The notes under the pieces are model-generated. The model was not told the origin of the DNA. It searched no databases and was given only the letters and a program-made list of their open reading frames with translations. A DNA stretch of 64,000 nt, taken from positions 18,863 through 82,862 of the forward strand of contig NZ_BJDL01000023.1 of NCBI RefSeq assembly GCF_005405125.1. Direction: 5' to 3'. Origin of the DNA: Lactiplantibacillus songbeiensis. Lineage in GTDB: Bacteria > Bacillota > Bacilli > Lactobacillales > Lactobacillaceae. Position numbers and translations under genes: made by a program. Each line of letters starts with the position of its first letter. Position 1 is the stretch's first letter. This document shows, one piece after another, positions 6,438 to 62,360 of the stretch.

Positions 6438-6592
6438 GTTAACGTCGGGCGGGCCAGCATTGGCTCAGTGGTGTCATTTGACTTAGTCGATGGGTTTCCG
6501 ACTTAGTCAAAGCCCGGCTTTTGAGACCGCCCTTCGGCTCAAAAACGCGGCCACCACGTTCCAGCCAATGCTGGCCCAACCAGAGTGGTAAC
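6438..6592 (+). repeat. Family-1 structured repeat, copy R1 (arm A only)
   Basis: Orientation '+' means the strand reading GCTCAGTGGTGTC. Outer stem pairs GGGCCAGCATTGGCTC with CCAGCCAATGCTGGCCC; note GCATTGG/CCAATGC against AATTGG/CCGATT in other copies, a paired change. Inner hairpins TTGACTTAGTCG/CGACTTAGTCAA and TTTTGAGACC/GGCTCAAAA. No terminal inverted repeats. Lies between the convergent ends of comC and rpoC. Confidence 0.9.
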
Positions 6593-14785: not shown

Positions 14786-14894
14786 GCACATCACCCTCCT
14801 TCCAAAGTTTCCCTAGTATAATTTACACCATTTTGTCGACGAGCGCGAGGGGGTGTTTGATGAATGGGCTAAATAAAATATGGTCTTTACGTAG

Positions 14895-15180
14895 TTGAAT
14901 CAGATTGCCACTCTGGTTGGTCCAGAATCGGCTGGAACGTGGTGGTCGTGTTTGGAAGCCAAAAGTGCGGTCTTCCGATCCGGGCTTTATCTAAGTCGGA
15001 AAATCACCGACCAAGATAAACGACACCACTGAGCCAATTCTGGCCCGCCCGCCGTTAACTTGCAAAACTTGAAAAATTAACGATTAATTATTTTCAGTTC
15101 AGTCATTTAGCCGAGAGATTGGGTTCTAAAATACTCAGACGTGCCGTCAGCTTTGAGCAATAACCAACTGATAACCCTAT
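14895..15180 (-). repeat. Family-1 structured repeat, copy R2 (arm A plus degraded arm B)
   Basis: Arm A (14904-15059) reads CCACTCTGGTTGG at one end and CCAATTCTGGCCCGCC at the other. Inner hairpins GGAAGCC/GGTCTTCC and TTATCTAAGTCGG/CCAAGATAA. The following 120 bp keep arm B landmarks (TTTAGCCGAGAG, GGTTCTAAAAT, AACCAACTGATAACC) but are decayed. Located between clpC and tetR. Confidence 0.85.
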
Positions 15181-19559: not shown

Positions 19560-19837
19560 TAAAGGACTGTCAGATTTCTTGCAACAACGGGCTTTTGCTG
19601 ATGATGATTTTGAATTATGACTAGCTGCTAAGTGCTGACAACCGGCCTCAGTTAACAGTCCCGTTCACCTCACCAACCGTGATCGTGCCCCTTCCAACCT
19701 CATACCAGCTTTATCAGCCACCTTTTCTCAGCGTGCCGTTACAATCAGTTGCGACACTAATATTAACGTCAAACTGATTAATTATTCAACCTTGCCCGCT
19801 GACGATTTAATCCAGCATGACTTTATAAGTCTGCTTA
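19560..19837. other. Non-coding stretch, nothing recognised
   Basis: No RBS-led frame or known motif. It lies between the tRNA promoter region and repeat R3 and may be decayed coding DNA, but no family can be named. Confidence 0.4.
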
Positions 19838-20223
19838 TGCTTGGGGCTAGTTGGTTTAAATTGCCACTCTGGTTGGCCCAGAATCAGCTGGAACGTAGTG
19901 GCCGCGTTTTCTAGCCACAGTGCGGTCTTGAAAGCCGGGCTTTAGCTAAGTCGGAAAATCACCGACCAAGATAAACGACACCACTGAGCGAACTCTGGTC
20001 CGCCCAGCGTTAGTTAATCAAGATTAATGATTATCTATTGTCGACCACAAATTTAGCCGAAAAGTTAGTTACTAAAATGCTCAGCTGTGGCGTTGGCCAT
20101 CGTGCGAGTGTTCTGCTCGGCCTTAGAGTTTTGAAGGCCTCAACCTTAACTTCAAAATAACCCATGGCGTTCCAACATTTTAGCAACCAACCGTCAGGCG
20201 GCAATTTCAACTAACGCCGAGCA
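19838..20223 (-). repeat. Family-1 structured repeat, copy R3 (full, longest)
   Basis: 386 bp with both terminal inverted repeats: TATGCTTGGGGCTAG at one end and CTAACGCCGAGCATA at the other. Arm A 19861-20018; arm B begins at TTTAGCCGAAAAG and ends at AACCAACCGTCAGGCGGC, with an extra internal hairpin (CTCGGCCTTAGAG...) that makes this copy longest. Lies after serS. Confidence 0.9.
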
Positions 20224-20244
20224 TATATCAACTGATTTAAGCGT

Positions 20245-29961: not shown

Positions 29962-29978
29962 CAAGTGTCAACTACTAC

Positions 29979-30332
29979 GCTTGGTACTAGTTGAAATTGT
30001 CGCCTGCCGGTTGGTTCCTAAAACGCTGGAACGCCATGGGCCATTTTGAAGCCAAAGTTCGGTCTTCCAAACTGGCCTTGGCCTAAGTCCGAGCATTTTA
30101 GGAACCAACCTCTCGGCTAAATTTGTTGATTGAACATTTTATAAATATCGACTAACTAACGGCGGGCGGGCCAGAATTGGCTCAGTGGTGTCGTTTGACT
30201 TAGCCGGTGATTTTTCCGGGTTAGTCAAAGCCCGGCTTGTGAGACCGCTCTTCGGCTCACAAACGTGGCCACCACGTTCCAGCCGATTCTGGACCAACCA
30301 GAGTGGCAATTTAAACCAACTAGCACCAAGCG
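29979..30332 (+). repeat. Family-1 structured repeat, copy R4 (full)
   Basis: 354 bp. Ends CGCTTGGTACTAGTTG and CCAACTAGCACCAAGCG are terminal inverted repeats. Arm B (29998-30115) pairs GGTTGGTTCCTAAAA with TTTTAGGAACCAACC. Arm A (30155-30300) has inner hairpins TTGACTTAGCCGG/CCGGGTTAGTCAA and TTGTGAGACC/GGCTCACAA. Between the convergent ends of the hydrolase and PAP2 genes. Confidence 0.92.
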
Positions 30333-30384
30333 TGTCATCTACTATATAAGGTCACTTTCCAAATTTACTTGATCATCATAGGCA

Positions 30385-31089: not shown

Positions 31090-31288
31090 CAAGACAAGAA
31101 CCCCCATTAATTTAGCAATTATGGAAATTATACCATAACCCCCGCCGTCACCGTAGTATCGCCATCAATTTGTTAGTGAACATTAAAATATCTCAAAGAT
31201 ATCAAAAATTTATCGTTTATTAATATAAAAACAGTTATTATTGGTTTGACCTTAGAAATTTTCGGTATTTTTTTCAAACTCAATTAAG

Positions 31289-31317
31289 TTTCAGATAATG
31301 GGGAAAAATGCTAAACT
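31289..31317 (+). promoter_or_regulatory. Candidate promoter of the LCP gene
   Basis: TTTCAG (31289-31294), 17 bp, TAAACT (31312-31317) with TGC ahead of the -10 (extended -10). 38 bp before the chosen start. Confidence 0.55.
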
Positions 31318-31354
31318 ATGGGTAGTCTTTACATAACCAATGGAGGAAATGTTC

Positions 31355-32371
31355 ATGGAAGATATGCCAAGCAGATCACAGATGCATCAACAGGAAAGCC
31401 CAAACGGCGGCGGTCCCAAGAAGAAACATCCCGTTCGTAATATTATTTTAATTGTTATCGCCGTGTTAATCGTGGGGATTGGTGCCTTTGCAGCACGGAC
31501 GTACTTTAACGCAAAAAACGCCGCTAAAATCGTCTATCAAAGCAGTGGCATTAAGAAGTCTCGGAATACCAGTGCCGTCTTAAACGGTAAGAAGCCGGTT
31601 TCCATCTTGTTACTCGGGACTGATACTGGGGCCCTCGGTCGAGATTATAAAGGCCGAACTGATACGATCATTGTGGCAACTATTAACCCGTCGACTAAAA
31701 CGACCACGTTAATGAGCTTGCCACGAGATTCAGAAGTCGCAATCTCTGGTTTTGAACAAGATTTCCCAGCTAAATTAAACGCAGCCTATGCTTATGGGAG
31801 TGCCGGGACAACCATCAAGACGGTTCAAAAATGGTTGAATGTGCCAATTGACTACTACGCTTTGATCAACATGGGTGGTATGAAGAAAGTTGTTGATGAA
31901 ATCGGCGGCGTGGATATTTCGCCAATCCGGACCTTTAGCTATGAAGGTTATCATTTCGTCAAGGGCAACAAAGTGCATATGAACGGCGCCAAAGCCTTAG
32001 CCTACTCACGGATGCGTTATGACGATCCATTAGGTGATTACGGTCGGCAACAACGGCAACGGCAATTGATTACTGCCATTATTAGTGAAAGTGCCAACGC
32101 CACTAACTTGATGAAGCAAGGATTCATGAAGTCCATTGCCAAACAAACGCGGACTGATTTAACTTTTGGTAACTTAACGAGCATTGTCACGAATTACCGA
32201 ACTGCCACTAAGAACATCGTCTCTGACCATGCCCAAGGTAGCGGTAAGATGCTTGATGGCCAATCATTTGAAGTCGTCCCACAATCTGAAAAGCAACGGG
32301 TTACAAACGTCTTACGGAAGTCACTTGATCTAAAAGCAGCGACGACCGGTGAGAAATACGCTAACAAATAA
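31355..32371 (+). CDS. LytR-CpsA-Psr (LCP) family cell-wall polymer ligase
   Basis: 338 residues from ATG 31355, eight bases after GGAGG; an ATG at 31340 contains that RBS. One N-terminal membrane anchor (NIILIVIAVLIVGIGAFAARTYF) with a charged cytoplasmic tail, then the extracellular LCP domain with ILLLGTDTGALG, GRTDTIIVATINP, SLPRDSEVAI (catalytic arginine region) and YSRMRYDDPLGDYGRQQRQRQLI. LCP enzymes attach teichoic acid or capsular polymers to peptidoglycan. Family members were once called transcriptional attenuators; the enzyme role is the accepted one. Confidence 0.94.
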   Translation: MEDMPSRSQMHQQESPNGGGPKKKHPVRNIILIVIAVLIVGIGAFAARTYFNAKNAAKIVYQSSGIKKSRNTSAVLNGKKPVSILLLGTDTGALGRDYKGRTDTIIVATINPSTKTTTLMSLPRDSEVAISGFEQDFPAKLNAAYAYGSAGTTIKTVQKWLNVPIDYYALINMGGMKKVVDEIGGVDISPIRTFSYEGYHFVKGNKVHMNGAKALAYSRMRYDDPLGDYGRQQRQRQLITAIISESANATNLMKQGFMKSIAKQTRTDLTFGNLTSIVTNYRTATKNIVSDHAQGSGKMLDGQSFEVVPQSEKQRVTNVLRKSLDLKAATTGEKYANK

Positions 32372-32391
32372 TCACTAAATAACGCCAAAGT

Positions 32392-32435
32392 AAAAGCATC
32401 GCGGACGAATAAAAGTCCCGATGCTTTTATTTTTT
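32392..32435 (+). terminator. Intrinsic terminator after the LCP gene
   Basis: AAAAGCATCG...CGATGCTTTT with an inner GGAC/GTCC extension and a T run. Confidence 0.9.
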
Positions 32436-32446
32436 GCGTACTCAAT

Positions 32447-32697
32447 GTTTGGCGCTATTCAAAATTGCCGCCTGCCGGTTGGTTTGTGGTCGACAGTAGA
32501 TCATCATTAATTATCGTTAACTAACGCCGGGCAGGCCAGAATTGGCTCAGTGGTGTCGTTTATCTTGGTCGGTGGTTTTCCGACTTAGATAAAGCCCGGC
32601 TTTCGAGACCACCCTTCGGCTCGAAAACATGGTCACCACGTTCCAGCCGATTCTGGCCCAACCAGAGTGACAATTTAAGCCAATTAGCACCAAGTAT
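32447..32697 (+). repeat. Family-1 structured repeat, copy R5 (arm B shortened)
   Basis: Degenerate left end GTTTGGCGCTATTC, right end CCAATTAGCACCAAG. Arm B reduced to CGCCTGCCGGTTGG. Arm A complete, with inner hairpins TTATCTTGGTCGG/CCGACTTAGATAA and TTTCGAGACC/GGCTCGAAAA. The right end touches the stop codon of yjjB. Confidence 0.9.
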
Positions 32698-32700
32698 GGC

Positions 32701-33156
32701 TTATAACAATTTAAATCGTCGCCATTGTAACAAACAAAAGGCAATTAACCGGTTAAATAACTCCGCAACCAGAAAACCGACTGCAATCGCCCCAGTAATC
32801 GTCACGACTTGTAACGTAAAGCCGATTGCGGCTCGATAATTACCCAATGCAAAGTTACGAACCATCTGATAGGCTTGGCTCCCCGGCACAAATGAGACCA
32901 GACTGGGAATATTAAAGATTATCGAGGGCATTTTCTTATAATGTGCTGCTAAATTACTTAACACGCCAATCCCGACTGAACCAATAAAGCTACCTAAAAC
33001 GACCCCACCATCAAATACTTGCACGATTAAGTAGGCACCCCAGGTTAGCGTGCCAATCCAACCGGCAATATTGAGGGCACGCCGAGGGATATTAATAATT
33101 AGTCCAAAACCAAGGACGGCAATATAGGCTAATACGAGCTGACCGAACCAATTCAT
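32701..33156 (-). CDS. yjjB: Threonine/serine exporter small subunit (YjjB/ThrE C-terminal type)
   Basis: 151 residues from ATG 33156 (MNWFGQLVLAY), with AGGGGA upstream. Four to five membrane segments and the SLVSFVPGSQAYQMVRNF stretch typical of the ThrE C-terminal domain (DUF3815). In most genomes yjjP and yjjB are adjacent and form a split ThrE exporter for threonine, serine or related acids. Here a TnpB element lies between them, so this gene has lost direct coupling to yjjP; it remains intact and keeps an RBS. Confidence 0.87.
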   Translation of the reverse strand: MNWFGQLVLAYIAVLGFGLIINIPRRALNIAGWIGTLTWGAYLIVQVFDGGVVLGSFIGSVGIGVLSNLAAHYKKMPSIIFNIPSLVSFVPGSQAYQMVRNFALGNYRAAIGFTLQVVTITGAIAVGFLVAELFNRLIAFCLLQWRRFKLL

Positions 33157-33159
33157 AGC

Positions 33160-34765
33160 GTCCCCTGCTATGCAAAACATGGAGAAATGTAGAAAAACAT
33201 TACTGATTTCCACATTTGGAAAGGTTGCATATTTCCTTTCTTTTATTTTGCTTACTACCGTTATAACGTTGGTATTCCAGTATTTCTAGTTAGAAATACC
33301 ACATTGACCAGCTATGATAGTTTAAGGGCTAAGCCAACCCCTTCGTTTTTATTTTTTAGATCAAAGCTAATAGATTGGCCACGGCGTTTTCGTCACGCTC
33401 AAGTTTAGCCCCACAATGGTAACAGTCATATTCATTATGTCGAGTACCATGCCAGCGATTGCCTTGTAAACCAACTTTGTCTTCGCCTTGCTTAGTGAAG
33501 CCACAAACTGAACAACGCTGTGTGGATGGATAAAGTCGATCTGCTAGGACCAACCTTTTTCCATACCATTGGCATTTATAAGTCAGTAGCTGACGGAAAT
33601 AACCAAACATCGAGCGATGCAGACCTTTCGATGCGACATGGGTCATCTGCATTTCCTTCACGGCTAGGTCCTCAATCACAATCGTGTCAAATTGAGTAAC
33701 CAGCATGGTCGTAAACTTATGCATCAGGTCATGCTGGCAATCAGCAACTTTACGATAGTCTCGTTGCAACTTGTTTTTCGTTGCAAGATAGGCTTTCGTT
33801 TTAGTTGCTTGTTTCCCATTAACTTGACGTTTACGTGCCAATTGACGTTGATAGAACTTAATCCGGCTGTATAAACGCATCAACTTGAAGGGCAGTGTTT
33901 TTAACACACCTAACGTATAGTTTAAGTGACCGACATTCACATCTACAGCTGTCACTTGATTTGTCTTAACTTTCGGCTTAATTGTCACTTCAAGATTCAG
34001 GCAGGCCCAATAGATACCATTTTCACGATAAATACTAACAGACTTTAACTTACCGCTTAAATCCACCTGTTTATTGAAGCGAATGTCGTACCAATCCTTG
34101 ACACCACGTGGCTTATCCAACCGTAATTTACCCGCGACTAACTTAGAACGGTCAGTTTTGAAGCCTTGGCGCGGTGCTCGCTTGGACTTGAATTTTGGTC
34201 GCCCCCAATCAGGTTGAGCTTGATCAAAAAAATTCTGCCAGGCGGTTCCTAAATCAGCAACCGCTAATTGCAAGGTCCGAGCTGATAAGCCATATTGCCA
34301 ATCGGCTTTGTTTGCTACTAATTCATTGCGTACCAATCGTGGATTAGGTTTCGAATTATCGTCAGCATTTAAGCAATAGGCTTCGTATAAGTCATTCCAG
34401 GTTGCCAGTGCATTGTTCCAGCAATAGCGTCGATAATTACATAAATCATTGAGTACCATCTGCATATGATTGTTAGGAGATAATCTGACCTTCTGGGTTC
34501 TAATCATACTAATAAGCACCTCAACATCGATAAAAGTTAGCGTAAACAATCATTCATTACGTTACTCAATCAATATAGCATAATAACTCGAAGCTAATCC
34601 TGATTTTACACAATCTATACCTACTTTACACGATTAATACAAAGGTAGCTGGCCATTGTGGTGATCAATCCATACTATCCAACTCCATGTTTGCTTTCTT
34701 TAGATAATATGAGCATTTTTCTATAAAACACCATGTTTTACTATATTTTAGCTAACAGTTATCGT
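33160..34765 (-). mobile_element. IS200/IS605-type element with tnpB only (boundaries approximate)
   Basis: A tnpB gene without tnpA separates yjjP and yjjB, which normally abut. Candidate end structures on the minus strand: hairpin TAAAACATGGTGTTTTA (about 34730-34746) on the left side, and GGTATTTCT/AGAAATACC (about 33279-33300) plus ATGT/ACAT hairpins (33178-33195) on the right. IS605-family elements use subterminal hairpins and make no target duplication, consistent with none being obvious. Exact ends cannot be fixed without an empty site. Confidence 0.55.
33356..34507 (-). CDS. tnpB: RNA-guided nuclease TnpB (IS200/IS605 OrfB)
   Basis: 383 residues from ATG 34507 with GAGGTG upstream; open frame extends 14 codons more without a better RBS. 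RuvC-like nuclease with all three acidic residues visible: D189 in TAVDVNVGHLNY, E279 in TIVIEDLAVKEM and D372 in LERDENAVANLL. The zinc finger CSVC...CYHC lies between the last two. N-terminal helical and OB-like (WED/REC) region precedes. TnpB proteins are guided by an RNA from the right end of their element (known for ISDra2); the intact motifs suggest this copy is active. tnpA would have to act in trans. Confidence 0.93.
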   Translation of the reverse strand: MIRTQKVRLSPNNHMQMVLNDLCNYRRYCWNNALATWNDLYEAYCLNADDNSKPNPRLVRNELVANKADWQYGLSARTLQLAVADLGTAWQNFFDQAQPDWGRPKFKSKRAPRQGFKTDRSKLVAGKLRLDKPRGVKDWYDIRFNKQVDLSGKLKSVSIYRENGIYWACLNLEVTIKPKVKTNQVTAVDVNVGHLNYTLGVLKTLPFKLMRLYSRIKFYQRQLARKRQVNGKQATKTKAYLATKNKLQRDYRKVADCQHDLMHKFTTMLVTQFDTIVIEDLAVKEMQMTHVASKGLHRSMFGYFRQLLTYKCQWYGKRLVLADRLYPSTQRCSVCGFTKQGEDKVGLQGNRWHGTRHNEYDCYHCGAKLERDENAVANLLALI

Positions 34766-34770
34766 CCTCC

Positions 34771-35517
34771 TTAAAAAAGTGTGATGACCACGGCAATGCC
34801 AAAACCAAGCGCCGCGGCACTAATCATCGCTTCAACAGCCCGCGCCGGACCACTCACAAAATTACCGGCTAAAATATCACGTACTGCATTCGTCAATGGC
34901 ACTCCGGGGACTAGCGGCATTAATGCCCCGATAATAATATCGTCGACATTCGTCCCCCACCCCCATTGAACCAACCATTCCGCCGCAACTCCAATCACTA
35001 GTGCAGCGACTAATTCGCTCAAAAATTTAATTTTTAAATAACGGTTCAATAAGTAAAAGACTAAGTAACCGACAACCCCAATCACAACGGTCGGCCAAGT
35101 ATTCTCGACTTCGTGCCGAAACATGATCATCAACGGCCCACTGACTAATGCCGCTCCAACCAATTGTAGCCAGAGTGGAAATGACCGTGACGCTTGATCT
35201 AATTGATTGAGTCGCCGATGTAAGGTGGGCAAATCAATGGTCTGATCGGCGAAAGCCCGTGAGAGCTGATTAACTTGCGCGACTTTCTCCAAATCAATCG
35301 TCCGCTTATTGACCGCAGCAATCTGAGTCGCATTCCGCCCTTGAATCGACATCATCACACCAGTAATTGTCACGTAAGTATTGGCTTGCACGACGCCAGC
35401 ATTTTGGGCAATGCGAATCATCGTATCATCGACCCGTGAAATCTCAGAACCATTTTCAACCATGATTTTACCGGCTTTTAAACAAGTCGCAATAATTAAT
35501 TCATCCGTGGTCATCAT
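34771..35517 (-). CDS. yjjP: Threonine/serine exporter large subunit (YjjP/ThrE N-terminal type)
   Basis: 248 residues. Cytosolic front with IIATCLKAGKIMVENGSEISRVDDTMIRIAQNAG, the DUF1212 signature, followed by about five membrane segments including the GALMPLVPGVPLTNAVRDILAGN loop. The TAA stop runs straight into GGAGGACGATAACTG, an orphaned RBS where yjjB should begin, marking the insertion junction. ATG at 35514 is equally possible as start. Confidence 0.9.
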   Translation of the reverse strand: MMTTDELIIATCLKAGKIMVENGSEISRVDDTMIRIAQNAGVVQANTYVTITGVMMSIQGRNATQIAAVNKRTIDLEKVAQVNQLSRAFADQTIDLPTLHRRLNQLDQASRSFPLWLQLVGAALVSGPLMIMFRHEVENTWPTVVIGVVGYLVFYLLNRYLKIKFLSELVAALVIGVAAEWLVQWGWGTNVDDIIIGALMPLVPGVPLTNAVRDILAGNFVSGPARAVEAMISAAALGFGIAVVITLF

Positions 35518-35597
35518 CCGACTGGCCCCCTACTTTTTAATACTTTAACTTTAAGCTAAAAACGGTCAGTCGCCTACCCTAAATCATTAAAAAACGC

Positions 35598-35638
35598 AAA
35601 AAAAATCGGCCAACGAAGTTTCCTTCGTCAGTCGATTT
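35598..35638 (-). terminator. Intrinsic terminator after the cold shock gene
   Basis: Minus strand AATCGACTGACGAAGG/CTTCGTTGGCCGATT and eight T. A smaller ACTCCTAC/GTAGGAGT-like hairpin lies just before it. Confidence 0.9.
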
Positions 35639-35682
35639 TCCGAAACTCCTATAAAGTAGGAGTTAGCCGTTTAAGCTGTTAA

Positions 35683-35883
35683 TTAGTCTTTTGTAACGTT
35701 AACTGCTTGTGGGCCACGATCGCTTTCTTCAACGTCGAATGATACAGCTTGGCCTTCTTCAAGAGTCTTGAAGCCGTCTTCTTGGATAGCTGAGAAATGT
35801 ACGAATACATCGCTACCGTTTTCGCGAGTGATAAAACCAAAGCCTTTATCGGCGTTAAACCATTTAACTGTTCCATGTTCCAT
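35683..35883 (-). CDS. Cold shock protein (CspA family)
   Basis: 66 residues from ATG 35883 ([18 protein letters not shown]), behind AGGAGG. Single OB-fold nucleic acid chaperone with RNP1 KGFGFI and RNP2 VFVHF, standard length. The predicted mRNA leader is about 115 nt from an extended -10 (TGCTACAAT, 36006-36014), in line with the long leaders of cold-shock genes. Confidence 0.96.
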
Positions 35884-36138
35884 AATAAAAAATCCTCCTA
35901 GTGCTTTTTTGCACATATAAATTGATGTATATCATGATTCGGTGCAAATGGGGATAGTTTATTGAAACGATCTGACCAAAATTACCTAACCAAGCTACAA
36001 GAGTAATTGTAGCATATTGTTATTGAAAAGGATAGTGAATCCGACGAATTCCCTAAAATTCTTTATAACTGGATAAAAAAAGCGGAATATAAACGCTACT
36101 TTTACGCAGTTTGTTCAGGATGGTATGAATGATTGATG

Positions 36139-36786
36139 CTACTTAACAAATATATTATGGGCCGCTTTGTAACTTACCGGAATCTGTTCCCCGGTGGCTT
36201 TCACTTCGATTGTCACTGGTCCTTCAAACGGATCATGCTTAATCACGGTGACGTCCTGACCAATCTTCAATTGAATGTCGTGTAAATAAACCAGCAAATC
36301 ATGATTATCAATGAAGCGTTCAATCACAACCGCTTGACCATCTTCCGTATCAGCTAACGCCGTATGACTGTCTTCCGTATAATGACCATCCTTATCAGGA
36401 ATTGCCCCACCATGTGGGCAATGAGTCGGATGATCCAAGAAGTCTTCCAGTGAATCCACTAAGCGTTCACTCGTCACATGTTCCAAAACTTCCGCTTCTG
36501 TATGCACGTCCGGTAAGTCATAACCCAGCTTATCAACTAAGAAATCTTCCCAGATTCGATGCTTACGAACCAAAGTCTCCGCATAGCGAATGCCTTTTTT
36601 GGTTAATGAAATCCCAGCGTAAGGGGTATGCTTGGCTAACCCTTCTTGCACCAGCTTACCGACCATTTCCGTTACGGAACCAGCCGCAATGTCCAAGCTA
36701 AGCGCAATCTGCTTATTGGACACCTTCTTCTTTGTACCGCCAAGTTCGAAAATAATTTTTAAATAATCTTCCTTCATGGGGGTCAT
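36139..36786 (-). CDS. mntR: DtxR/MntR family metal-dependent repressor
   Basis: 215 residues. Winged HTH MKEDYLKIIFELGGTKKKVSNKQIALSLDIAAGSVTEMVGKLVQEGL, dimerisation and metal-binding region with TEAEVLEHVTSERLVDSLEDFLDHPTHCPHG (histidine, glutamate and cysteine ligands), and a C-terminal SH3-like FeoA domain (about residues 150-215). Longer than Bacillus MntR (142) because of that domain. Manganese-responsive repression is the usual role in lactobacilli, but the metal is inferred. No transporter gene is adjacent. Confidence 0.88.
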   Translation of the reverse strand: MTPMKEDYLKIIFELGGTKKKVSNKQIALSLDIAAGSVTEMVGKLVQEGLAKHTPYAGISLTKKGIRYAETLVRKHRIWEDFLVDKLGYDLPDVHTEAEVLEHVTSERLVDSLEDFLDHPTHCPHGGAIPDKDGHYTEDSHTALADTEDGQAVVIERFIDNHDLLVYLHDIQLKIGQDVTVIKHDPFEGPVTIEVKATGEQIPVSYKAAHNIFVK

Positions 36787-36920
36787 GAATATTCGTCACC
36801 TCAACTAATTAATCTAAATCGTCATTTTTAATGATAGTGCAATTATCGTACTACATTTACACTTTTTTTGCTACTGATACCGCATTTGGTACTGGCCAAG
36901 ATAAAGCTTGTCACTCTAGT

Positions 36921-37240
36921 TACGTTTGGTGCTAGTTGAAATTGCTGCCTGCCGGTTGGTTCCTAAAATGCTGGAACGCTGTGGGCCATTTTAGGAACCA
37001 ACCTCTCGGCTAAATAACCGAACTGAAAATAAACAATTGTTAACTTTTTAACAGCTGTTAATTAACGTCGGGCGGACCAGAATTGGCTCAGTGGTGTCGT
37101 TTATCTTAGTCGGTGATTTCCCGACTTAGATAAAGCCCGGCTTTCGAGACCGCTCTGTGGCTCGAAAACGCGGCCACCACGTTCCAGCCGATTCTGGCCC
37201 AACCAGAGTGGCAATTTAAACCAACTAGCACCAAACGTAC
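36921..37240 (+). repeat. Family-1 structured repeat, copy R6 (full, best ends)
   Basis: 320 bp. Ends TACGTTTGGTGCTAGTTG and CAACTAGCACCAAACGTA are perfect inverted repeats. The bases that differ from copy R4 (GTTT for GCTT) change on both ends together. Arm B pairs GGTTGGTTCCTAAAATG with CATTTTAGGAACCAACC around GCTGGAACGCTGTGGGC. Arm A inner hairpins TTATCTTAGTCGG/CCGACTTAGATAA and TTTCGAGACC/GGCTCGAAAA. Unusual in lying between divergent genes. Confidence 0.93.
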
Positions 37241-37520
37241 TCTGGTTGACTAAATTTATTTTAGCCAATCAGCAGACGGCCATCTTGACTGACACCAAAT
37301 ACTTACAACTGACATTTCTAAATTGCCTAACGCTGTCCATAACTGGACCAGCTAATTTAATTATTAAACCGCCTGACTAATTACGTTAGCACGCTTGCAG
37401 CTTAGTAATCATCGTGCCATAATTAAATTGTAGCGCAAACCAGTCACTTTTGGTTGCAACCGTTTTAAATTTCTTGAATTTTACCGGTAGCTTGCGTCAA
37501 TACTAAGGAGGAACCGCATC
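37241..37520. other. Intergenic stretch upstream of the 114-residue gene
   Basis: No gene. It should contain the promoter of the downstream gene; an AT-rich -10-like stretch is near 37420-37430 but no convincing -35. Confidence 0.4.
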
Positions 37521-37865
37521 GTGAATGATGATGCTCAATTATCCATTACCCAATTAAATGATTCTTTGCAACACAAAGCTGTTGAAGCCTTTGCTGCGTT
37601 TTATCAACGTCTTTTTGATGCTAATAATCTCGAACTTATGTCCAATTATCCGGTCGTCAACTATATGACTGACATCAACGAACATTTGAACTTATCTCGC
37701 TTTATGACTAAAGATCAACGTATCTCAGATAGTGTTGACTTTTCCTACCAAGATTACTTAAGCTTGATTGACAAGTTAGACCAGCCCTACTTTGAAAGTG
37801 GCAATCCCGCTCAGACCTGGGACGAATGGTATGCTAGTCACTTCGCTCAAGTATCCAAATCTTAA
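37521..37865 (+). CDS. Hypothetical protein (114 residues)
   Basis: GTG start 8 bp after AAGGAGG, a strong RBS. Soluble, mostly helical, rich in aromatic and acidic residues (SYQDYLSLIDKLDQPYF, TWDEWYASHFAQVSKS). No signal peptide, membrane segment or recognised domain. Single-gene unit ending in a bidirectional terminator shared with the Crp-family gene. Function unknown. Confidence 0.75.
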   Translation: MNDDAQLSITQLNDSLQHKAVEAFAAFYQRLFDANNLELMSNYPVVNYMTDINEHLNLSRFMTKDQRISDSVDFSYQDYLSLIDKLDQPYFESGNPAQTWDEWYASHFAQVSKS

Positions 37866-37909
37866 TTTTTTTAATGAGGTCGAGCCAGTTAGGTTCGGCC
37901 TCATTTTTC
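37866..37909. terminator. Bidirectional terminator
   Basis: AATGAGGTCGAGCC/GGTTCGGCCTCATT with T runs on both sides; it serves the 114-residue gene (+) and overlaps the end of the Crp-family gene (-). Confidence 0.85.
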
Positions 37910-38551
37910 GGTTATCGTAATCTGACGCCCTTTAATTTCAAGCAGTCCTTCGGCAACCAGCTGGCGTAGTTGGCGACTCAATGTTTCCGGCGTAATGCCT
38001 AAAAAGCTCGCTAGCTCTTTTTTCTTCTCAGGTAGTTCAAACGGATTTGCCTGTTGTTCTTGAGCGACTTGCTGTAAGTAAACTAAAATACGGTTTTTCG
38101 ACTTTAAATTACCTGTGAGCGCACTGACCGACTCTAAGGCCGTTAGCCGATCCCCCAAAATATTCAACAAATTCAACGCCACTTGTGGAACCCGCTGCAT
38201 CAAGTCCTGAAAGTCAGCGCGACCAATTGAACAAATCCACGTATCTTCAACCGCTTCAGCATAATTAAAATGTTGTCGCCGCACGAACAACGCGGCCTCA
38301 CTATCAATAGCCCCTGGCCGCAGCATATAGAGCACCTTTTCTTTACCATTAGCATTCAGTTGATAGACCTTCACCCGGCCTTGATCCACAATCAACATCC
38401 GTTCTAACGGTGTCGTTGGTGCATACAACTGGGTGCCACGCTTGACCAACTGCTGGTGAACCGAAATTTTGACCAGTTCCTCAATATCCGTATCCGCTAA
38501 CCCCTTAAAGATTGGCGCTGCTTGCACACATTTAAAGGCCGAATGTGACAT
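37901..38551 (-). CDS. Crp/FNR family regulator, FLP-like
   Basis: 216 residues. N-terminal cyclic-nucleotide-type beta barrel, long dimer helix, C-terminal HTH. The recognition helix reads PETLSRQLRQL with E189, S192 and R193, the FNR-type ExxSR pattern that reads TTGAT half sites. Only two cysteines, C8 and C107, so no FNR [4Fe-4S] cluster; their placement resembles C5 and C102 of Lactobacillus casei FLP, where a disulfide acts as the redox switch. RBS AAAAGGTGATAAAATG overlaps the edge of an FNR-type box, suggesting autoregulation. Confidence 0.88.
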   Translation of the reverse strand: MSHSAFKCVQAAPIFKGLADTDIEELVKISVHQQLVKRGTQLYAPTTPLERMLIVDQGRVKVYQLNANGKEKVLYMLRPGAIDSEAALFVRRQHFNYAEAVEDTWICSIGRADFQDLMQRVPQVALNLLNILGDRLTALESVSALTGNLKSKNRILVYLQQVAQEQQANPFELPEKKKELASFLGITPETLSRQLRQLVAEGLLEIKGRQITITEK

Positions 38552-38565
38552 TTTATCACCTTTTC

Positions 38566-38579
38566 TTGATAATTATCAA
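38566..38579. promoter_or_regulatory. FNR-type operator between divergent genes
   Basis: TTGATAATTATCAA, a perfect match to the FNR consensus TTGATNNNNATCAA. Its centre lies about 40 bp upstream of the predicted start of the right-hand gene (-10 TATACA at 38600-38605), the class II activator position, and 15 bp upstream of the regulator's own ATG. Confidence 0.85.
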
Positions 38580-38638
38580 TTTTTTAAATTCACATCTAGT
38601 ATACACTAACTTTATCAACTAACGGAGGCTTTGAACTT

Positions 38639-39196
38639 ATGAAAATCTATCGTGCAGAACTTGTTCCACTAAACGCTAATGCAATTGGTACAGCCGCTCA
38701 TGGTCAGGCAGTGTTAATCGAAAACGGCGCTAACTTGACGATCAACTTAGAGTTATTCGATACCCCAGCAAATATCCAACATTGGGAACATTTCCACGGC
38801 TTTCCAGATAATCGGCCAGCCGAAATCGCCACTAGCGCCCAAGATGTAAATCACGATGGTTTCGTTGACTTACCTGAAACCGGCGCTGTTTCTGGCACAA
38901 CGATGGTGCCACTCGACAACGCGCCACACAAAATGAACATTCCCCATGATGACTATCCTGTTGCCGACGCTAATGGTCACTTTGCTTATACTAAAGTCGT
39001 GCCATTGACTGAATTAGATGCAAAATTCAAGGCCACTTTCAATGACAGTGACTTAGCACTAGACAAACGTGTCATTTATGTTCACGGGGTGACCGATGAT
39101 GTCGTCTTACCAGACACGGTCGCCGGCGCAGTCGGTCATTATTCAACACATGTGACATTGCCAATTGCGGTTGGCAAGATCGAATTAGTTAACTAA
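38639..39196 (+). CDS. Hypothetical protein with an EF-hand-like calcium loop
   Basis: 185 residues, RBS GGAGG. No signal peptide or membrane segment. Features seen: beta-rich pattern, HWEHFHGFPDNRPAEIAT, then DVNHDGFVDLPE (about residues 78-89), which matches dockerin/EF-hand calcium loops, and a histidine-bearing end (YVHGVTDDVV, HYSTHVTLPIAVG). This loosely recalls CHRD-like proteins but cannot be assigned. Divergent from the FLP-like regulator across the FNR box, so it is a likely target. Confidence 0.8.
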   Translation: MKIYRAELVPLNANAIGTAAHGQAVLIENGANLTINLELFDTPANIQHWEHFHGFPDNRPAEIATSAQDVNHDGFVDLPETGAVSGTTMVPLDNAPHKMNIPHDDYPVADANGHFAYTKVVPLTELDAKFKATFNDSDLALDKRVIYVHGVTDDVVLPDTVAGAVGHYSTHVTLPIAVGKIELVN

Positions 39197-39234
39197 ACCA
39201 GAGCGGCAACTTAATCTGTTCCTAATTACGATTA

Positions 39235-39289
39235 AGAAGCGCCAGGCAACGACTCAAATCATGAATTTGAGTCGTTGCCTGGCGCTTCT
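39235..39289 (+). terminator. Terminator with a 25-bp perfect stem
   Basis: AGAAGCGCCAGGCAACGACT... pairs without mismatch over 25 bp around a 5-nt loop, followed by CTTTTCTATTT. Just before it (39195-39220) is a decayed piece of the family-1 end (CCAGAGCGGCAACTTAA). Confidence 0.85.
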
Positions 39290-39298
39290 TTTCTATTT

Positions 39299-39573
39299 AA
39301 ATAGTTGAAACGTGTTCGCCCTGACTGCGCCTGCCGGTTGGTTTCTAAAAGTTACTGATTACAATGACTTAACGTCAAATTATAAATATCCAGTAATTAA
39401 CGGAGGGCGGGTCAGAATTGGCTCAGTGGTGTCGTTTATCTTGGTCGGCGATTTTCCGACTTAGATAAAGCCCGGCTTGGAAGACCGCACCTTGGCTTCC
39501 AAACGTGGCCACCACGTTCCAGCCGATTCTGGGCCAACCAGAGTGGCAATTTAAACCAACTAACACCAAGCGT
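39299..39573 (+). repeat. Family-1 structured repeat, copy R7 (left part replaced by family 3)
   Basis: Left side starts GTTGAAACGTGTTCGCCCTG, which is the family-3 start, then joins GCGCCTGCCGGTTGG of family-1 arm B. Arm A complete with inner hairpins TTATCTTGGTCGG/CCGACTTAGATAA and TTGGAAGACC/GGCTTCCAA. Right end CCAACTAACACCAAGCG. Confidence 0.87.
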
Positions 39574-39586
39574 CCTTCTTTCTATC

Positions 39587-39785
39587 TTGCTAGTCGAAAC
39601 GTGTTCGGACCAACTGAAGACTGCGCTTGCTACGCTATCAGCACAATGCCAAAACCGCATTTTCTATGTTGCTAGTCGAAACGTGTTCGCCCTGACTGCA
39701 CCTTCCGCTTGCTACGCTAAGTCAACCATGCGGAAAATCACCGCATAATTGACTTAGCTAGGCAATGCTCAGATGCAACCCGTCA
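39587..39785 (+). repeat. Family-3 structured repeat, two adjacent copies (one partial)
   Basis: Partial copy 39587-39660 and fuller copy 39666-39785, both opening TTGCTAGTCGAAACGTGTTC. The fuller copy has an inner double hairpin GCTAAGTCAA..ATGCGG/CCGCAT..TTGACTTAGC and outer arms CTGAC/GTCAG. Another copy is at 47893-48012 with paired changes. Confidence 0.8.
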
Positions 39786-39800
39786 GCGCTCTCACTCTAC

Positions 39801-39836
39801 AAAAAAGACCCAAGCTTTCCCGCATCACTTGGGTCC
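39801..39836 (-). terminator. Terminator of a candidate small RNA
   Basis: Minus strand GACCCAAG...CTTGGGTC followed by six T. No protein gene ends here on this strand. Confidence 0.8.
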
Positions 39837-40110
39837 TACTGGTAAGAATCATCACCGGGCAACGGAACACTACTTCTAGAATTCGATTACACGTTGTTTT
39901 ATGCACGATCACTACCTGGTCTAAGCCAGGCATCTCTCAGCGCTGTTCCGCGCTCTGTTGTAAATCTCTTTGCAAAGTTAAACTTCAAAACACGACCAAC
40001 ATGACAACAGTCAATCCAGCCATAAGATCGATTGACAAGCGGAAAACTTGATTGTCCGAGTGACTTACCGACTCTTACCGCCTTAAATTTACCATTAATC
40101 AACCGGTTTC
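39801..40110 (-). ncRNA. Candidate structured non-coding RNA
   Basis: About 300 bp between the MerR gene and a strong minus-strand terminator, without an RBS-led gene. On the minus strand successive hairpins can be drawn: CTGTTGT/ACAACAG enclosing a variable part, AGCGC/AGCGCT, CCTGG/CCAGG, then the terminator. It does not match 6S, 4.5S, tmRNA, RNase P, T-box or riboswitch landmarks that could be recalled. The 5' end and promoter are not identified; it could also be a long 3' UTR of the MerR gene. Confidence 0.35.
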
Positions 40111-40137
40111 ACAAGCCAGAAGCTAGTGCACCCTAAC

Positions 40138-40590
40138 TTATTTCACCGGATAAACCCGATAATGAGGCTCGCCATCCGCAATGTAGCAGTACAAACACTG
40201 TGTTTGTGCGTCATCAAAATAACCCAGATTCAACATATGATGCCCCTCGCGTTCTTCAATCCCTTGAAACGCATTAATCATAAAGATCCGCATCATTTCC
40301 ATCTGCTTCGAATGATCCCTGGCCTTTTGTGTGGCCGCAGCTAACGTAAAGCCTTCATCGAGCATCGCTTTAATAAAGTGAACCCGCATTAACGTCCCGT
40401 ATGAAAACCGGTGCGCACTATTTTTTTCAGTGGTCGCTTCACTATGAATATAACTTTTTTGTTCCCAATAACGGAGTTGCGTCTGTGAGACCCCCGTTGT
40501 CTTAGCCAAATCACTAATGCCAACGGTGAATTTATGCTTGTTAATTTGCGATTTTAATTTTTTAAAGAATACCTCGTCTTGATTGTCCAC
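40138..40590 (-). CDS. MerR family regulator (GlnR/TnrA-like HTH)
   Basis: 150 residues, GTG start behind AAGAGG. N-terminal winged helix FTVGISDLAKTTGVSQTQLRYWEQKSYIH, then a helical section and a C-terminal CLYCYIADGEP segment with two cysteines. Divergent from the MFS exporter. The two promoters meet at a TGTNAN7TNACA dyad, the operator pattern of GlnR/TnrA, which are MerR-family proteins. Likely represses itself and the exporter; inducer unknown. Confidence 0.87.
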   Translation of the reverse strand: MDNQDEVFFKKLKSQINKHKFTVGISDLAKTTGVSQTQLRYWEQKSYIHSEATTEKNSAHRFSYGTLMRVHFIKAMLDEGFTLAAATQKARDHSKQMEMMRIFMINAFQGIEEREGHHMLNLGYFDDAQTQCLYCYIADGEPHYRVYPVK

Positions 40591-40623
40591 GAAATAACCT
40601 CTTTTCTTAGATTTCCAATATTC

Positions 40624-40651
40624 AGTATATATTTTTTTACATTAATGTCAA
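40624..40651 (-). promoter_or_regulatory. Promoter of the MerR regulator
   Basis: Minus strand TTGACA (40646-40651), 16 bp, TATACT (40624-40629). Confidence 0.8.
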
Positions 40652-40662
40652 GTTTGTTGACA
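40646..40662. promoter_or_regulatory. Dyad operator shared by divergent promoters
   Basis: TGTCAAGTTTGTTGACA: exact fit to TGTNAN7TNACA. Its left and right arms are the -35 hexamers (TTGACA on opposite strands) of the two promoters. Confidence 0.75.
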
Positions 40663-40685
40663 AAAGCATTAAATCAGCTTATATT
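40657..40685 (+). promoter_or_regulatory. Promoter of the MFS exporter operon
   Basis: TTGACA (40657-40662), 17 bp, TATATT (40680-40685), 35 bp before the start codon. Confidence 0.8.
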
Positions 40686-40719
40686 AGATATCGTAGTTTT
40701 TTAGAGAGAAGGGATTTAC

Positions 40720-42192
40720 TTGTCAACCACAGTTGATACCAATGGGAAACCGTACAAACGCGGCTTGCTCATTGCCATTTTACTTATCGGGACTTTTTGT
40801 ACAGTCCTTAACCAAACAATTTTAACGACGGCCTTTCCGACTTTGATGAAGGCTTTCGATATTACAACGTCCACTGTCCAATGGCTAACGACCGGTTTCT
40901 TACTAGTCAATGGGATTATGATCCCAGTTAGTGCCTGGCTCAGTACTCGTTTCAGTACCAAATGGTTATATTTATCAGCAATGACCATTTTCGAAATTGG
41001 GACCATCATTTGTTTTACCGCACCTAGCTTTCAATTTCTACTCGCTGGACGATTAATCCAAGCGATGGGTGTTGGGGTTACCATGCCATTATTACAAACA
41101 ATCATGTTAACCATCTTCCCCGCTAACAAACGGGGCGCTGCCATGGGGATGGCCGGCATCGTCATCGGCCTCGCCCCAGCGATCGGCCCAACTTTATCTG
41201 GGTGGGTCATTGATAACTTAAGCTGGCGTGATTTGTTCGGTTTAATTATTCCAATCGTCGCGATTGTCTTAATCGCCGGCCTGTTCTTCATGGCTGATGT
41301 CTTAGAAACCTCCAAACCTAAACTCGACTTCCTATCATTAGGTATGTCTACGTTAGGTTTTGGGAGCTTACTTTACGGCTTCTCTTCAGTTGGGGATGAC
41401 GGTTGGACGTCTGCTAAAGTCTTGACCACCTTAATTATTGGAGTCGTCATGATTGTCTTATTCGTCTGGCGTCAATTAACCATGGAAAAACCATTCTTGG
41501 AATTCCGCGTCTTCAAACACTCTGAATTCACGATTGCGGCCGTTTTAAGTTCCGTAACCAATATGGCCATGGTCGGCGCCGAAATGGTCATTCCATTGTA
41601 CTTGCAAATCATTCATGGGTTCTCCGCATTCCAGTCTGGGTTAACTTTGCTAGCCGGGGCCTTAATGATGGGAATCATGAGTCCGATTACTGGACGGGCT
41701 TTTGACCGCTTTGGGGCTAAACGCCTGACCACGCTCGGAATGTTCTTATTAACTGCCGGAACGATTCCTTTCATCTTCATCACCCGTGATACGGCCACGA
41801 TTTATATCGTTGTCTTATACGCTTTACGGATGTTCGGGATTTCGATGGTCATGATGCCTGCCACGACTGCTGGGATGAATGCCTTGCCTGTTGATATGAT
41901 GGGTCATGGGACTGCCGTCAATAACACGATTCGTCAAGTGGCTAGTTCTATTGGGACTGCTATCTTAACGTCGGTCCTATCTAACGTTACGACGTCACAA
42001 GCCCCAGCTCACAGTTTGATCAAGCGCAATCCGCTCGGCTACAAAGACGAATACTTCGCCGCCACTTTAAATGGGTATCACGCGGCTTTCTACGTAGCGG
42101 TGGCCTTCTGTCTTGTTGGGCTCGTTGTCGCCTTCTTCATGAAAGACAAACAACATTCCGTTAAACCGGCTACAAAGGGGGCTAACAACTAA
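40720..42192 (+). CDS. MFS drug exporter, DHA2 family (14 TM type)
   Basis: 490 residues, TTG start with AGAGAAGGG upstream. N-terminal LNQTILTTAFPTLMKAF and TVQWLTTGFLLVNGIMIPVSAWLSTRF are the DHA2/EmrB-type motifs (proton antiport multidrug exporters). GRLIQAMGVGVTMPLLQTIMLTIFP carries the antiporter motif C/B region. Fourteen membrane segments expected. Overlaps the next gene by one base of the stop/start (TAATG). Substrate unknown. Confidence 0.9.
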   Translation: MSTTVDTNGKPYKRGLLIAILLIGTFCTVLNQTILTTAFPTLMKAFDITTSTVQWLTTGFLLVNGIMIPVSAWLSTRFSTKWLYLSAMTIFEIGTIICFTAPSFQFLLAGRLIQAMGVGVTMPLLQTIMLTIFPANKRGAAMGMAGIVIGLAPAIGPTLSGWVIDNLSWRDLFGLIIPIVAIVLIAGLFFMADVLETSKPKLDFLSLGMSTLGFGSLLYGFSSVGDDGWTSAKVLTTLIIGVVMIVLFVWRQLTMEKPFLEFRVFKHSEFTIAAVLSSVTNMAMVGAEMVIPLYLQIIHGFSAFQSGLTLLAGALMMGIMSPITGRAFDRFGAKRLTTLGMFLLTAGTIPFIFITRDTATIYIVVLYALRMFGISMVMMPATTAGMNALPVDMMGHGTAVNNTIRQVASSIGTAILTSVLSNVTTSQAPAHSLIKRNPLGYKDEYFAATLNGYHAAFYVAVAFCLVGLVVAFFMKDKQHSVKPATKGANN

Positions 42193-42911: not shown

Positions 42912-42930
42912 ATAACTGTGACCTAACGTC

Positions 42931-42974
42931 AAAAGAGCCATTCGCAATCGAAACTGATTGCGAATGGCTCTTTT
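42931..42974. terminator. Bidirectional terminator
   Basis: AAAAGAGCCATTCGCAATC/GATTGCGAATGGCTCTTTT, shared by the convergent exporter operon and MerR gene. Confidence 0.92.
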
Positions 42975-43979: not shown

Positions 43980-44244
43980 TACGCCTGGTGCTAGTTGAAA
44001 TTACCGCCTGCCGGTTGAATAGCTGAACTTTAAATAATCAATCGTTAATTTTTTAATTTCCGTTAGTTAACGGCGGGCGGTCCAGAATTGGCTCAGTGGT
44101 GTCGTTTATCTTGGTCGGTGATTTTCCGACTTAGATAAAGCCCGGCTTGCGAGACCGATCTTTGGCTCGCAAACGCGGCCACCACGTTCCAGCCGATTCT
44201 GGGCCAACCAGAGTGACGATTTAAGCCAACTAGCACCAAGCGTA
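43980..44244 (+). repeat. Family-1 structured repeat, copy R8 (arm B shortened)
   Basis: Ends TACGCCTGGTGCTAGTTG and CCAACTAGCACCAAGCGTA. Arm B reduced to CGCCTGCCGGTTG. Arm A inner hairpins TTATCTTGGTCGG/CCGACTTAGATAA and TTGCGAGACC/GGCTCGCAA. Flanked on both sides by TACTTGG (43973-43979 and 44245-44251), a possible target duplication. Confidence 0.9.
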
Positions 44245-44252
44245 TACTTGGT

Positions 44253-44415
44253 GGTAATTAACGACGTCGGGCTAGAATTGGCTCAGTAGTGTCGTTTATC
44301 TTAGTCGTGGTTTTCGACTTAGATAACCCCCGGCTTGCGAGACGGCACTTTGGCTCGCAAACACGGCCACCACGTTCCAGCCGATTCTAGACCAACCAGT
44401 GTGGCAAGCTAACAT
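44253..44415 (+). repeat. Family-1 structured repeat, copy R8b (arm A only, tandem)
   Basis: Starts within 10 bp of the R8 end. Outer stem CTAGAATTGGCTCAG / CCAGCCGATTCTAG: here the change CCAG to CTAG at one end is matched by CTAG at the other. Inner hairpins TTATCTTAGTCG/CGACTTAGATAA and TTGCGAGAC/GGCTCGCAA. Confidence 0.88.
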
Positions 44416-47582: not shown

Positions 47583-47785
47583 AACAATAGGTGGTATAAA
47601 GTCAATTTGAGTCGCAGTGACCAGCAGGTTCGCCGTGTCGAATCACTTTGACCGGTGGGCTTTCCGGCCTTAGTGATTGGGCCAGCTTGTTAGACGTGAT
47701 CTTCGGCTAACAAGTGCCCTGCAGACCGAACTTTGGCTGCAGGTCTGCCCCACCGCGAACCTGCTGGTCAACGAAGACGGCTAAA
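47583..47785 (+). repeat. Family-2 structured repeat
   Basis: About 200 bp. Outer stem GACCAGCAGGTTCGC / GCGAACCTGCTGGTC, then three inner hairpins: AATCACT/AGTGATT, CTTGTTAG/CTAACAAG and CCTGCAGACC/GGCTGCAGG. Layout matches arm A of family 1 with one additional hairpin, but the primary sequence differs. Between convergent genes. Confidence 0.8.
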
Positions 47786-52287: not shown

Positions 52288-52350
52288 AGTGTCTGCCATA
52301 ATTCATAGTCTTTGGGCTACATAGACTGATGTGTGCTTAGTTAGCTATAA

Positions 52351-52503
52351 GTTGCCACTCTGGTTGGCCCAGAATCGGCTGGAACGTGGTGGCCGCGTTT
52401 TCGAGCCAAAGGTCGGTCTCGAAAGCCGGGCTTTATCTAAGTCGAAGACCACGACTAAGATAAACGACACCACTGAGCCAATTCTGGACCGCCCGACGTT
52501 AAT
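52351..52503 (-). repeat. Family-1 structured repeat, copy R10 (arm A only)
   Basis: GCCACTCTGGTTGG at the left, CCAATTCTGGACCGCCC at the right. Inner hairpins TTTCGAGCC/GGTCTCGAAA and TTATCTAAGTCG/CGACTAAGATAA. No terminal repeats. Confidence 0.9.
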
Positions 52504-55798: not shown

Positions 55799-56106
55799 AT
55801 GCTTGGTACTAGTTAAAATTGCTGTCTGCCGGTTGGTTCCTAAAACGCTGGAATGCCATGAGCCATTTTAGAAACTAACCTCTCGGCTCAATTTGTGGTC
55901 GATAATAAATAGTCATTAATTCCCGTTAACTAACGCCGGGCGGCCCAGAATTGGCTCAGTGGTGTCGTTTATCTTAGTCGGTGGTTTCCCGACTTAGATA
56001 AAGCCCGGCTTGGAAGACCGCACTTTGGCTTCCAAACGTGGCCACCACGTTCCAGCCGATTCTGGACCAACCAGAGTGACAATTTAAACCAACTAACACT
56101 AAGCGT
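55799..56106 (+). repeat. Family-1 structured repeat, copy R11 (full)
   Basis: 308 bp. Ends ATGCTTGGTACTAGTT and AACTAACACTAAGCGT. Arm B pairs GGTTGGTTCCTAAAA with TTTTAGAAACTAACC. Arm A inner hairpins TTATCTTAGTCGG/CCGACTTAGATAA and TTGGAAGACC/GGCTTCCAA. Between two same-strand genes. Confidence 0.92.
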
Positions 56107-62070: not shown

Positions 62071-62195
62071 ATTACTCCCATCCTTTCACATCTCGTTAAC
62101 GCTTCCATGTTTATCTTAACACGGTCATATCGGGATTTAGCACCGGAAATGATTGGTTTTTACTATGGATTTATAGGTAACGGGAATTAATGTCA

Positions 62196-62360
62196 GTTGG
62201 TGTTAAATTGCCACTCTGGTTGATCCAGAATTAACTGGAACGTGGTGGTCGTGTTTTTGAGCCATAATGCGGTCTCAAAAGTCTGGCTTTATCTAAGCCA
62301 GAAAACTACCGGCTAAGTCAAACGACACCACTGAGCCAATTCTGGCCTGCCCGTCATTAA
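62196..62360 (-). repeat. Family-1 structured repeat, copy R12 (arm A with one end)
   Basis: GTTGGTGTTAAATTGCC at the left is a reduced terminal repeat. Inner hairpins TTTTGAGCC/GGTCTCAAAA and TTATCTAAGCCAG/CCGGCTAAGTCAA (the latter mismatched at one end). Right end CCAATTCTGGCCTGCC. Between divergent units. Confidence 0.87.

Follow-up and report, generated by a model that had tools for sequence, protein, structure and literature searches.

More than 100 short intergenic pieces in the genome of the lactic acid bacterium Lactiplantibacillus songbeiensis are miniature jumping elements, and we are highly confident that they constitute MITEs of the IS982 type. Between the terminal inverted repeats of a MITE, filler is usually expected; in this element the interior is better conserved than any other part, as a covarying fold kept across a bacterial family, with the ends apparently swapped. 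The cargo of the element is an opposed pair of one module of about 140 nt with a three-way junction, since arm B matches the model of arm A on the opposite strand. The reading that we favour as probable is that a MITE with IS982 ends, likely moved in trans, carries this covarying module pair as a cargo that would act as a folded single strand, probably RNA.

The window analysed here is a stretch of 64,000 nucleotides of this genome, for which the initial annotation had proposed at least 13 copies of one element. All 12 listed places were recovered by blastn of the reference copy (36921-37240) against the window, and the covariance model (R1) found 12 full modules (E <= 2e-33) and one weak extra copy (Table 1). 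Second arms were also placed by covariance model in the copies at 29977-30333 and 19837-20224, and the full form of arm B, which is short in the reference copy, was found in locus L015. The 320-nt reference copy folds at -149 kcal/mol vs. -85.6 +/- 4.7 for its shuffles (z -13.6), and the 410-nt long form gives fold z-scores of -8.5 and -9.1 on its two strands. The claim that no copy sits inside a gene holds for the window, where 0 of the 12 modules overlap an ORF of at least 100 aa; in the host genome, 1 of 52 modules lies mostly within such an ORF. As no ORF of at least 100 aa lies over the window copies, there is no transposase gene inside them.

Table 1. Copies of the element in the window and parts of the reference copy.
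Feature	Position	Strand	Remarks
Reference copy, complete element (short arm B + full arm A)	36922..37238	+	ends ACGTTTGG...CCAAACGT
Left 17-nt terminal inverted repeat	36922..36938	+	1 mismatch to ACGCTTGGTGCTAGTTG, end of IS982-family elements
Right 17-nt terminal inverted repeat	37222..37238	-	1 mismatch to ACGCTTGGTGCTAGTTG
Left target duplication ACTCTAGTT	36913..36921	.	one ACTCTGGT in L. dongliensis
Right target duplication ACTCTGGTT	37239..37247	.	flank of reference copy
Arm B of reference copy, reduced to simple hairpin	36948..37002	-	E 0.0096 alone
Arm A, 140-nt three-way-junction module	37071..37210	+	covariance model R1, E 6e-41
Copy with both ends	43981..44243	+	perfect 9-bp duplication ATACTTGGT, 43972-43980 and 44244-44252; absent at L. 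dongliensis site
Second tandem copy, arm A only	44252..44407	+	module 44266-44403, E 1.9e-33
Copy with both ends	29977..30333	+	arm B 30003-30109 (-), arm A 30165-30305 (+); 9-10-bp duplication with one mismatch; absent at L. dongliensis site
Copy with both ends, no clear duplication	19837..20224	-	arm A 19865-20004 (-), arm B 20064-20198 (+)
Copy with both ends, no clear duplication	55799..56106	+	arm A 55939-56078
Copy common to L. dongliensis	32447..32693	+	arm A 32530-32669
Copy without clear left end	39329..39573	+	arm A 39406-39545; absent at L. dongliensis site
Arm A only	6439..6591	+	module 6448-6587
Partial copy	14892..15132	-	module 14909-15049
Arm A only	52333..52503	-	module 52356-52493
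Arm A only	62195..62360	-	module 62212-62351
Weak, divergent module copy	47613..47782	+	R1 E 1e-4 in window, 6e-4 in larger set

The host genome (3.03 Mb, 50 contigs) holds at least 71 blast matches to the reference copy, from the best 40 of 346 candidates, and at least 150 modules at E 1e-4 by covariance model, from the best 150 of 1,844 candidates. The 17-nt end alone gave 130 forward and 124 reverse matches genome-wide (254), vs. 6 and 4 (10) for a control. Among 42 copies with two neighbouring genes, 17 lie in tandem, 16 in divergent and 9 in convergent settings (background gaps: 132, 47 and 48), counts that rest on crude ORF calls and on which no conclusion is built. Copies are not enriched behind genes reading into them, the gene on the 5' side pointing into arm A in 16 of the 42.

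The proposal of a nonautonomous mobile element is borne out by IS982-type ends, target duplications of 7-9 bp and sister-species sites without the copy. Target duplications of this length (at most 1 mismatch) adjoin the ends in 34 of 64 end-paired copies (about 130-410 bp long in the loci analysed), vs. 0.9 on shuffling; in the other 30 no duplication was seen. Perfect duplications flank 17 copies (4 of 7 bp, 5 of 8 bp and 8 of 9 bp), with none at 5, 6 or 10-12 bp among the 64, and an internally deleted copy of 154 bp also possesses a perfect duplication. Three long end pairs of 2.4-5.4 kb, in the host or L. dongliensis, were left out before this count (64 of 67 kept); considered as autonomous elements, they were rejected for showing no clear target duplication, and the pair of 5.4 kb starts and finishes in copies with one lost end. 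Furthermore, comparison of window positions 28500-48400 with the matching L. dongliensis contig (G004 C20, 62,591 bases) revealed no copy in that species at 4 of 5 compared sites (29979, 36921, 39299 and the tandem pair 43980/44253). One of these is base-exact: at the site of the reference copy, 36922-37238, L. dongliensis has one ACTCTGGT, and the window has one on each side of the element. The other three empty sites are too diverged for a base-level junction, and loss in L. dongliensis is possible there. A different short repeat (GTCGAAACGTGTTCG...) recurs within 39307-39753, next to the copy at 39329-39573, and is also found at the matching L. dongliensis place.

Changes at one end had been described as matched at the other, which holds for the copies quoted and fails as a rule over the 64 end-paired copies: of the changes across the 17 terminal positions, 4 are shared by both ends and 156 are not (shuffled mean 6.9). 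A covarying stem formed by the terminal repeats was thus ruled out, and because the ends do not covary, they behave as two transposase binding sites.

Among plasmids, a query with 40 nt of the element end matched two from L. plantarum, where the match borders an annotated IS982-family transposase, and one from Priestia with no feature there. In the two L. plantarum plasmid IS982 elements, the left end is identical to ACGCTTGGTGCTAGTTG (17/17) and the right end agrees in 15/17 positions. Beyond 21-24 nt, the 40-nt end is no longer similar to the plasmid IS, which speaks against a simple origin by internal deletion from those plasmid IS copies and would leave trans-mobilisation unaffected. L. 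nangangensis (G010) carries two neighbouring open IS982 copies, one with both 17-nt ends identical to those of the element and a 7-bp duplication, the other with ends of 17/17 and 15/17 and without duplication. Both transposases tested exceed the NCBIfam IS982 cut-off (248 and 219 bits vs. 130), relatives of the plasmid transposase occur in 13 of 21 genomes of the genus, some as fragments only, and several IS982-type elements of the genus possess 7-9-bp duplications, others none (read by eye). An IS982 transposase thus likely moved the element in trans. In the host genome there is one IS982 match only, decayed, with 9 in-frame stops and a left end of 16/17; because this sole copy is decayed, the family may be immobile in the host, its mover being lost there or lying outside the draft.

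Searches of plasmids and phages with a window copy and with a copy from another genus gave no match, and viral contigs gave 3 matches to 16 nt of the end and none to 23 nt of the arm, a result to which no weight is given here. The TnpB insertion at window positions 33164-34771 was considered as mobiliser and rejected, its ends being dissimilar by eye to the 17-nt repeat and the insertion being a TnpB-type element. It is a TnpB-only insertion (397 aa, NCBIfam guided TnpB), absent at the matching L. dongliensis site and with matches elsewhere in that genome. Two genomes of the genus, of 2.6 Mb each (G018 and G019), have no module match, yet G019 carries IS982-type transposases.

The two arms, A and B, of the initial annotation do exist, but they represent one module, present twice in opposite orientations. 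Searched on the opposite strand, the arm A profile recovers arm B at E 1.8e-10, 2.9e-12 and 4.1e-13 (L015, L089 and L028, respectively), and a later covariance model, built without arm-B rows, detected arm B next to arm A with E-values down to 8e-24. Module pairs less than 450 bp apart are mostly arranged -+ (26, together with 3 ++, 0 +- and 0 --, in 320 kb of the host genome; 20, together with 3 --, 1 ++ and 0 +-, in 331 kb of another genus), these counts not being independent, as pairs descend from one another. The module folds as a long stem with an internal loop, a three-way junction and two hairpins. Covariation, proposed as a check, proved strong inside the arms and not at the ends. In a genus alignment of 60 diverse sequences, 93.3% of cells pair and 20 of 43 pairs change on both sides; 238 double-changed cells were counted vs. 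69.7 in shuffles (0 of 500 reach it), and slid versions score <=0.06 vs. 0.284. In another genus (71 matches, 70 distinct), 94% of module cells are paired, 37 of 43 pairs change on both sides, double-changed cells number 729 vs. 214.8 shuffled (0 of 500) and the score is 0.611 vs. 0.181, in an alignment that was fitted to the model and whose counts therefore lean towards structure. Many stem pairs run through three or four Watson-Crick types, and loops and junctions are near-constant (GCTCAG, CTTAG on both sides of hairpin 1, AGACCG and CGTTCCAGC).

Following the proposal to search genomes of the L. plantarum group with a covariance model, R1 matched 19 of 21 Lactiplantibacillus genomes at E 1e-4, and 5 of the 21 hold more than 100 modules each. 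With stricter filters and eight scored candidates per genome, the module was found in 103 of 397 Lactobacillaceae genomes and 13 of 40 genera; in an order-wide sample it occurs in 23 of 395 genomes, all 23 of them Lactobacillaceae, with no module in the other families sampled. Some modules stand alone, others form opposed pairs, and some apparently lie behind either of two other terminal repeats, which are dissimilar; modules without a visible 17-nt IS982-type end also exist, with flanks such as AGCGCAG or GGAGCGG (by eye). In a genome of another genus (G068), the ends that enclose a pair are GTTAGTGTAAAGTTTCTC-like and GTAAGTGTCAACTTTTTC-like; a 9-bp duplication, AGCAAAAAG, perfect and directly adjoining, flanks one copy (L218), and no clear one is seen at the other copies that have both ends. 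In G144, GGTTCTTTCTTAAGTT and its partner enclose one pair, and a 10-bp repeat (L205) begins 2 nt away from the right end; no duplication is seen at a second copy that has both ends. By eye, the ends in both genomes do not resemble the IS982-type end, and 8 stretches contained no autonomous partner for those of G068. The module has thus apparently been exchanged between carriers with dissimilar ends. No Rfam 15 family reached its gathering score on the window copies, and at a low threshold the reference copy and six loci gave miRNA models only, far below their cut-offs. A match to a named repeat family, one of the outcomes that would have refuted the initial annotation, was found neither in Rfam nor in the open-access literature, where no description of the element or the module was encountered. 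As far as these searches reach, the kind of carrier, an IS982-driven MITE, is known, and the module and its apparent exchange are new.

The nature of the mismatches that stems tolerate bears on the form in which the module would be used, because a constraint on duplex only would tolerate G-T and A-C equally. In another genus, read in the own sense of each arm, G-T outnumbers A-C by 100 to 23 (21 pairs vs. 4, p 9e-4), and in Lactiplantibacillus arm A (176 rows, leaving out 13 arm-B rows, with which the counts are 219 vs. 70) by 180 to 66 (23 pairs vs. 11, p 0.058), both p-values being generous, as copies are related. By strand of the match, the ratios in the other genus are 49:10 and 51:13. No excess is seen in the 19 rows of G001 (G-T 4 vs. 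A-C 3) and no clear one in Lactiplantibacillus arm B (18 sequences; 28 vs. 19, with 7 pairs each way). Changes at unpaired sites (C-to-T 3.3%, G-to-A 3.9%, A-to-G 7.1% and T-to-C 5.4%) reveal no bias that would yield the G-T excess. The excess points to a single strand, for which RNA and single-stranded DNA would both be suitable; RNA is most probably the form, because the loops are constant and a G-U pair adjoining the loop of hairpin 2 is near-fixed (53 of 60 rows). We consider it quite likely that the cargo, a structured module found throughout the family, is used as a single strand, and the evidence tips slightly towards its use as RNA. Of the structured transcript module suggested earlier, the fold stands, by covariation and by the bias of G-T over A-C, and the transcript side is a putative one.

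Under the favoured reading of a MITE carrying a folded RNA pair, the module is proposed to protect or trim transcript ends. With the arms opposed and their 3' ends outward, a transcript from either side would carry exactly one sense arm, located in the 3' half of the transcript, and insertion in either orientation would put the same folded RNA domain behind a gene reading into the element. This domain would shield or trim the end of the transcript, making the insertion tolerable; copies keeping the fold would be those that spread, and individual resident copies would drift. Beyond this, we entertain more tentatively the idea that the module represents a new class of mobile RNA domain in Lactobacillaceae, a structured RNA that would spread as an opposed pair by moving from one set of transposon ends to another, unrelated one; if so, either transcribed strand might yield one correctly folded domain, a prospect to which we give the same guarded standing.

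The arms could also be folded single-stranded DNA, as in REP/REPIN sequences, with an HUH-type enzyme copying the opposed doublet via lagging-strand hairpins and the IS982 ends added later, an origin that we regard as unlikely. Opposed doublets plus singlets are a trait of REPINs as well (PMC3116915, excerpt), the preference for G-T over A-C in the own sense of each arm also suits DNA hairpins, and the modules without visible IS982-type end would fit. The module, however, is 140 nt long and built around a three-way junction, unlike a short REP hairpin, and the ORFs between modules, in 20 stretches, resemble host genes by the starts of their translations. Moreover, HUH transposition leaves no target duplications, and the insertions described here carry them.

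Matching sites in related genomes inform on how the fold evolves once a copy is resident. The set comprises 12 groups of matching sites in five genomes of the family (18 comparisons), leaving out L196:13477 vs. L203:5114, whose flanks do not match. Differing pairs amount to 21 single-sided pair-keeping, 28 broken and 33 double changes; 28 of the 33 doubles fall in two comparisons, both between G174 and G299, in which entire stems have changed en bloc, with 13 pairs affected in one and 15 in the other. Without these two, there are 18 single-sided pair-keeping, 24 broken and 5 double changes. In addition, five orthologue pairs of the host and L. dongliensis display 4 double changes that keep the pair and 1 that does not; of their single-sided changes, 5 keep the pair and 5 break it. 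The en-bloc differences and the changes in these orthologue pairs would suit a reading in which folding is not selected and covariation is a by-product of template switching or gene conversion, acting between the two arms of an imperfect palindrome; we nonetheless judge this improbable, since loops and junctions stay near-constant while stem pairs vary through three or four types, a G-T excess is not predicted, and the terminal repeats, likewise an inverted repeat, do not covary. At one site shared by two genomes (L184:7579-7721 vs. L187:7874-8015), both partners are changed together in 15 of the 43 stem pairs, a replacement en bloc, perhaps by gene conversion between modules.

Resident copies look nearly neutral and would mostly drift, which argues against a host function of each copy; given this drift at matching sites, the fold is most likely under selection at the time when copies spread. 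A host RNA with a regulatory or processing role, distributed by transposition and afterwards retained at many sites to control genes, appears just as improbable: the very strong covariation and the intergenic placement would be in keeping with it, but at matching sites in sister genomes, broken and kept pairs are about equally frequent (the 24 and 18 above), the ORFs between modules vary from place to place, and in one genome the module is cleanly missing, exactly between two CCTCCGG repeats that flank the module of the sister genome, a pattern of hairpin deletion. At one and the same site, three sister genomes have a pair (L189:809-1195), a single module (L195:18451-18592) and none (G174 C139, about 42083-42197, L186); the empty site in L186 keeps AGCCGGAGGCGG, as expected for deletion between GGAGG repeats. 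Most improbable of all is an ordinary MITE with filler between its terminal repeats, chance hairpins and modules without a role, for although the element is non-coding, with terminal inverted repeats and target duplications, and the 154-bp copy with its perfect target duplication suggests that most of the cargo may be dispensable for presence at a site, filler would not persist across 13 genera, be paired in 94% of cells in another genus (in the alignment fitted to the model) or lie behind other ends in two more genera, and modules without visible IS982-type end already point against it.

Several known repeats resemble the IS982-end MITE with its module pair in part. MITECca01 of Cardinium is an IS982-derived MITE of about 240 bp in many copies, likewise short and non-coding with IS982-family inverted ends, and is likely maintained by its parental IS according to its authors (PMC9769881, excerpt). 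It is itself likely IS-derived (PMC9769881, excerpt), whereas here 21-24 of 40 nt of the end match the plasmid IS and the interior is a covarying two-arm module also present in other genera. REPINs share the opposed doublet as a unit, singlets, an extragenic location and compensatory changes, but consist of short REP hairpins tied to RAYT transposases (PMC3116915, excerpt); the present module spans ~140 nt with a three-way junction, and its carrier has target duplications and DDE-type ends. ERIC, NEMIS, Efa-1 and further folding repeats are also intergenic and able to fold in RNA, and Yersinia ERIC is said to regulate neighbouring genes by RNA hairpin folding (PMC2267715, PMC1590033, excerpts); the comparison of these repeats with the element is one by description, not by sequence. 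One of these two sources, a repeat survey of 2008, included L. johnsonii, and its text contains neither the word plantarum nor IS982. With structured RNAs of Rfam, the module shares covarying stems and constant loops. The module would provide RNA annotation with a family for many hundreds of intergenic loci, and in these easily grown food bacteria one can ask directly how a transposon benefits from carrying a structured nucleic acid.

Besides the element, the window contains an ARAGORN tRNA-Val call at 6960-7051, inside an ORF of 1213 aa and with no Rfam call, which is probably false, and a lysine riboswitch at 25246-25430 on the minus strand, upstream of the ORF at 23662-25125. An aggregation-promoting factor with a LysM domain is encoded at 48024-48611, a region with several further matches in most of the relatives searched.
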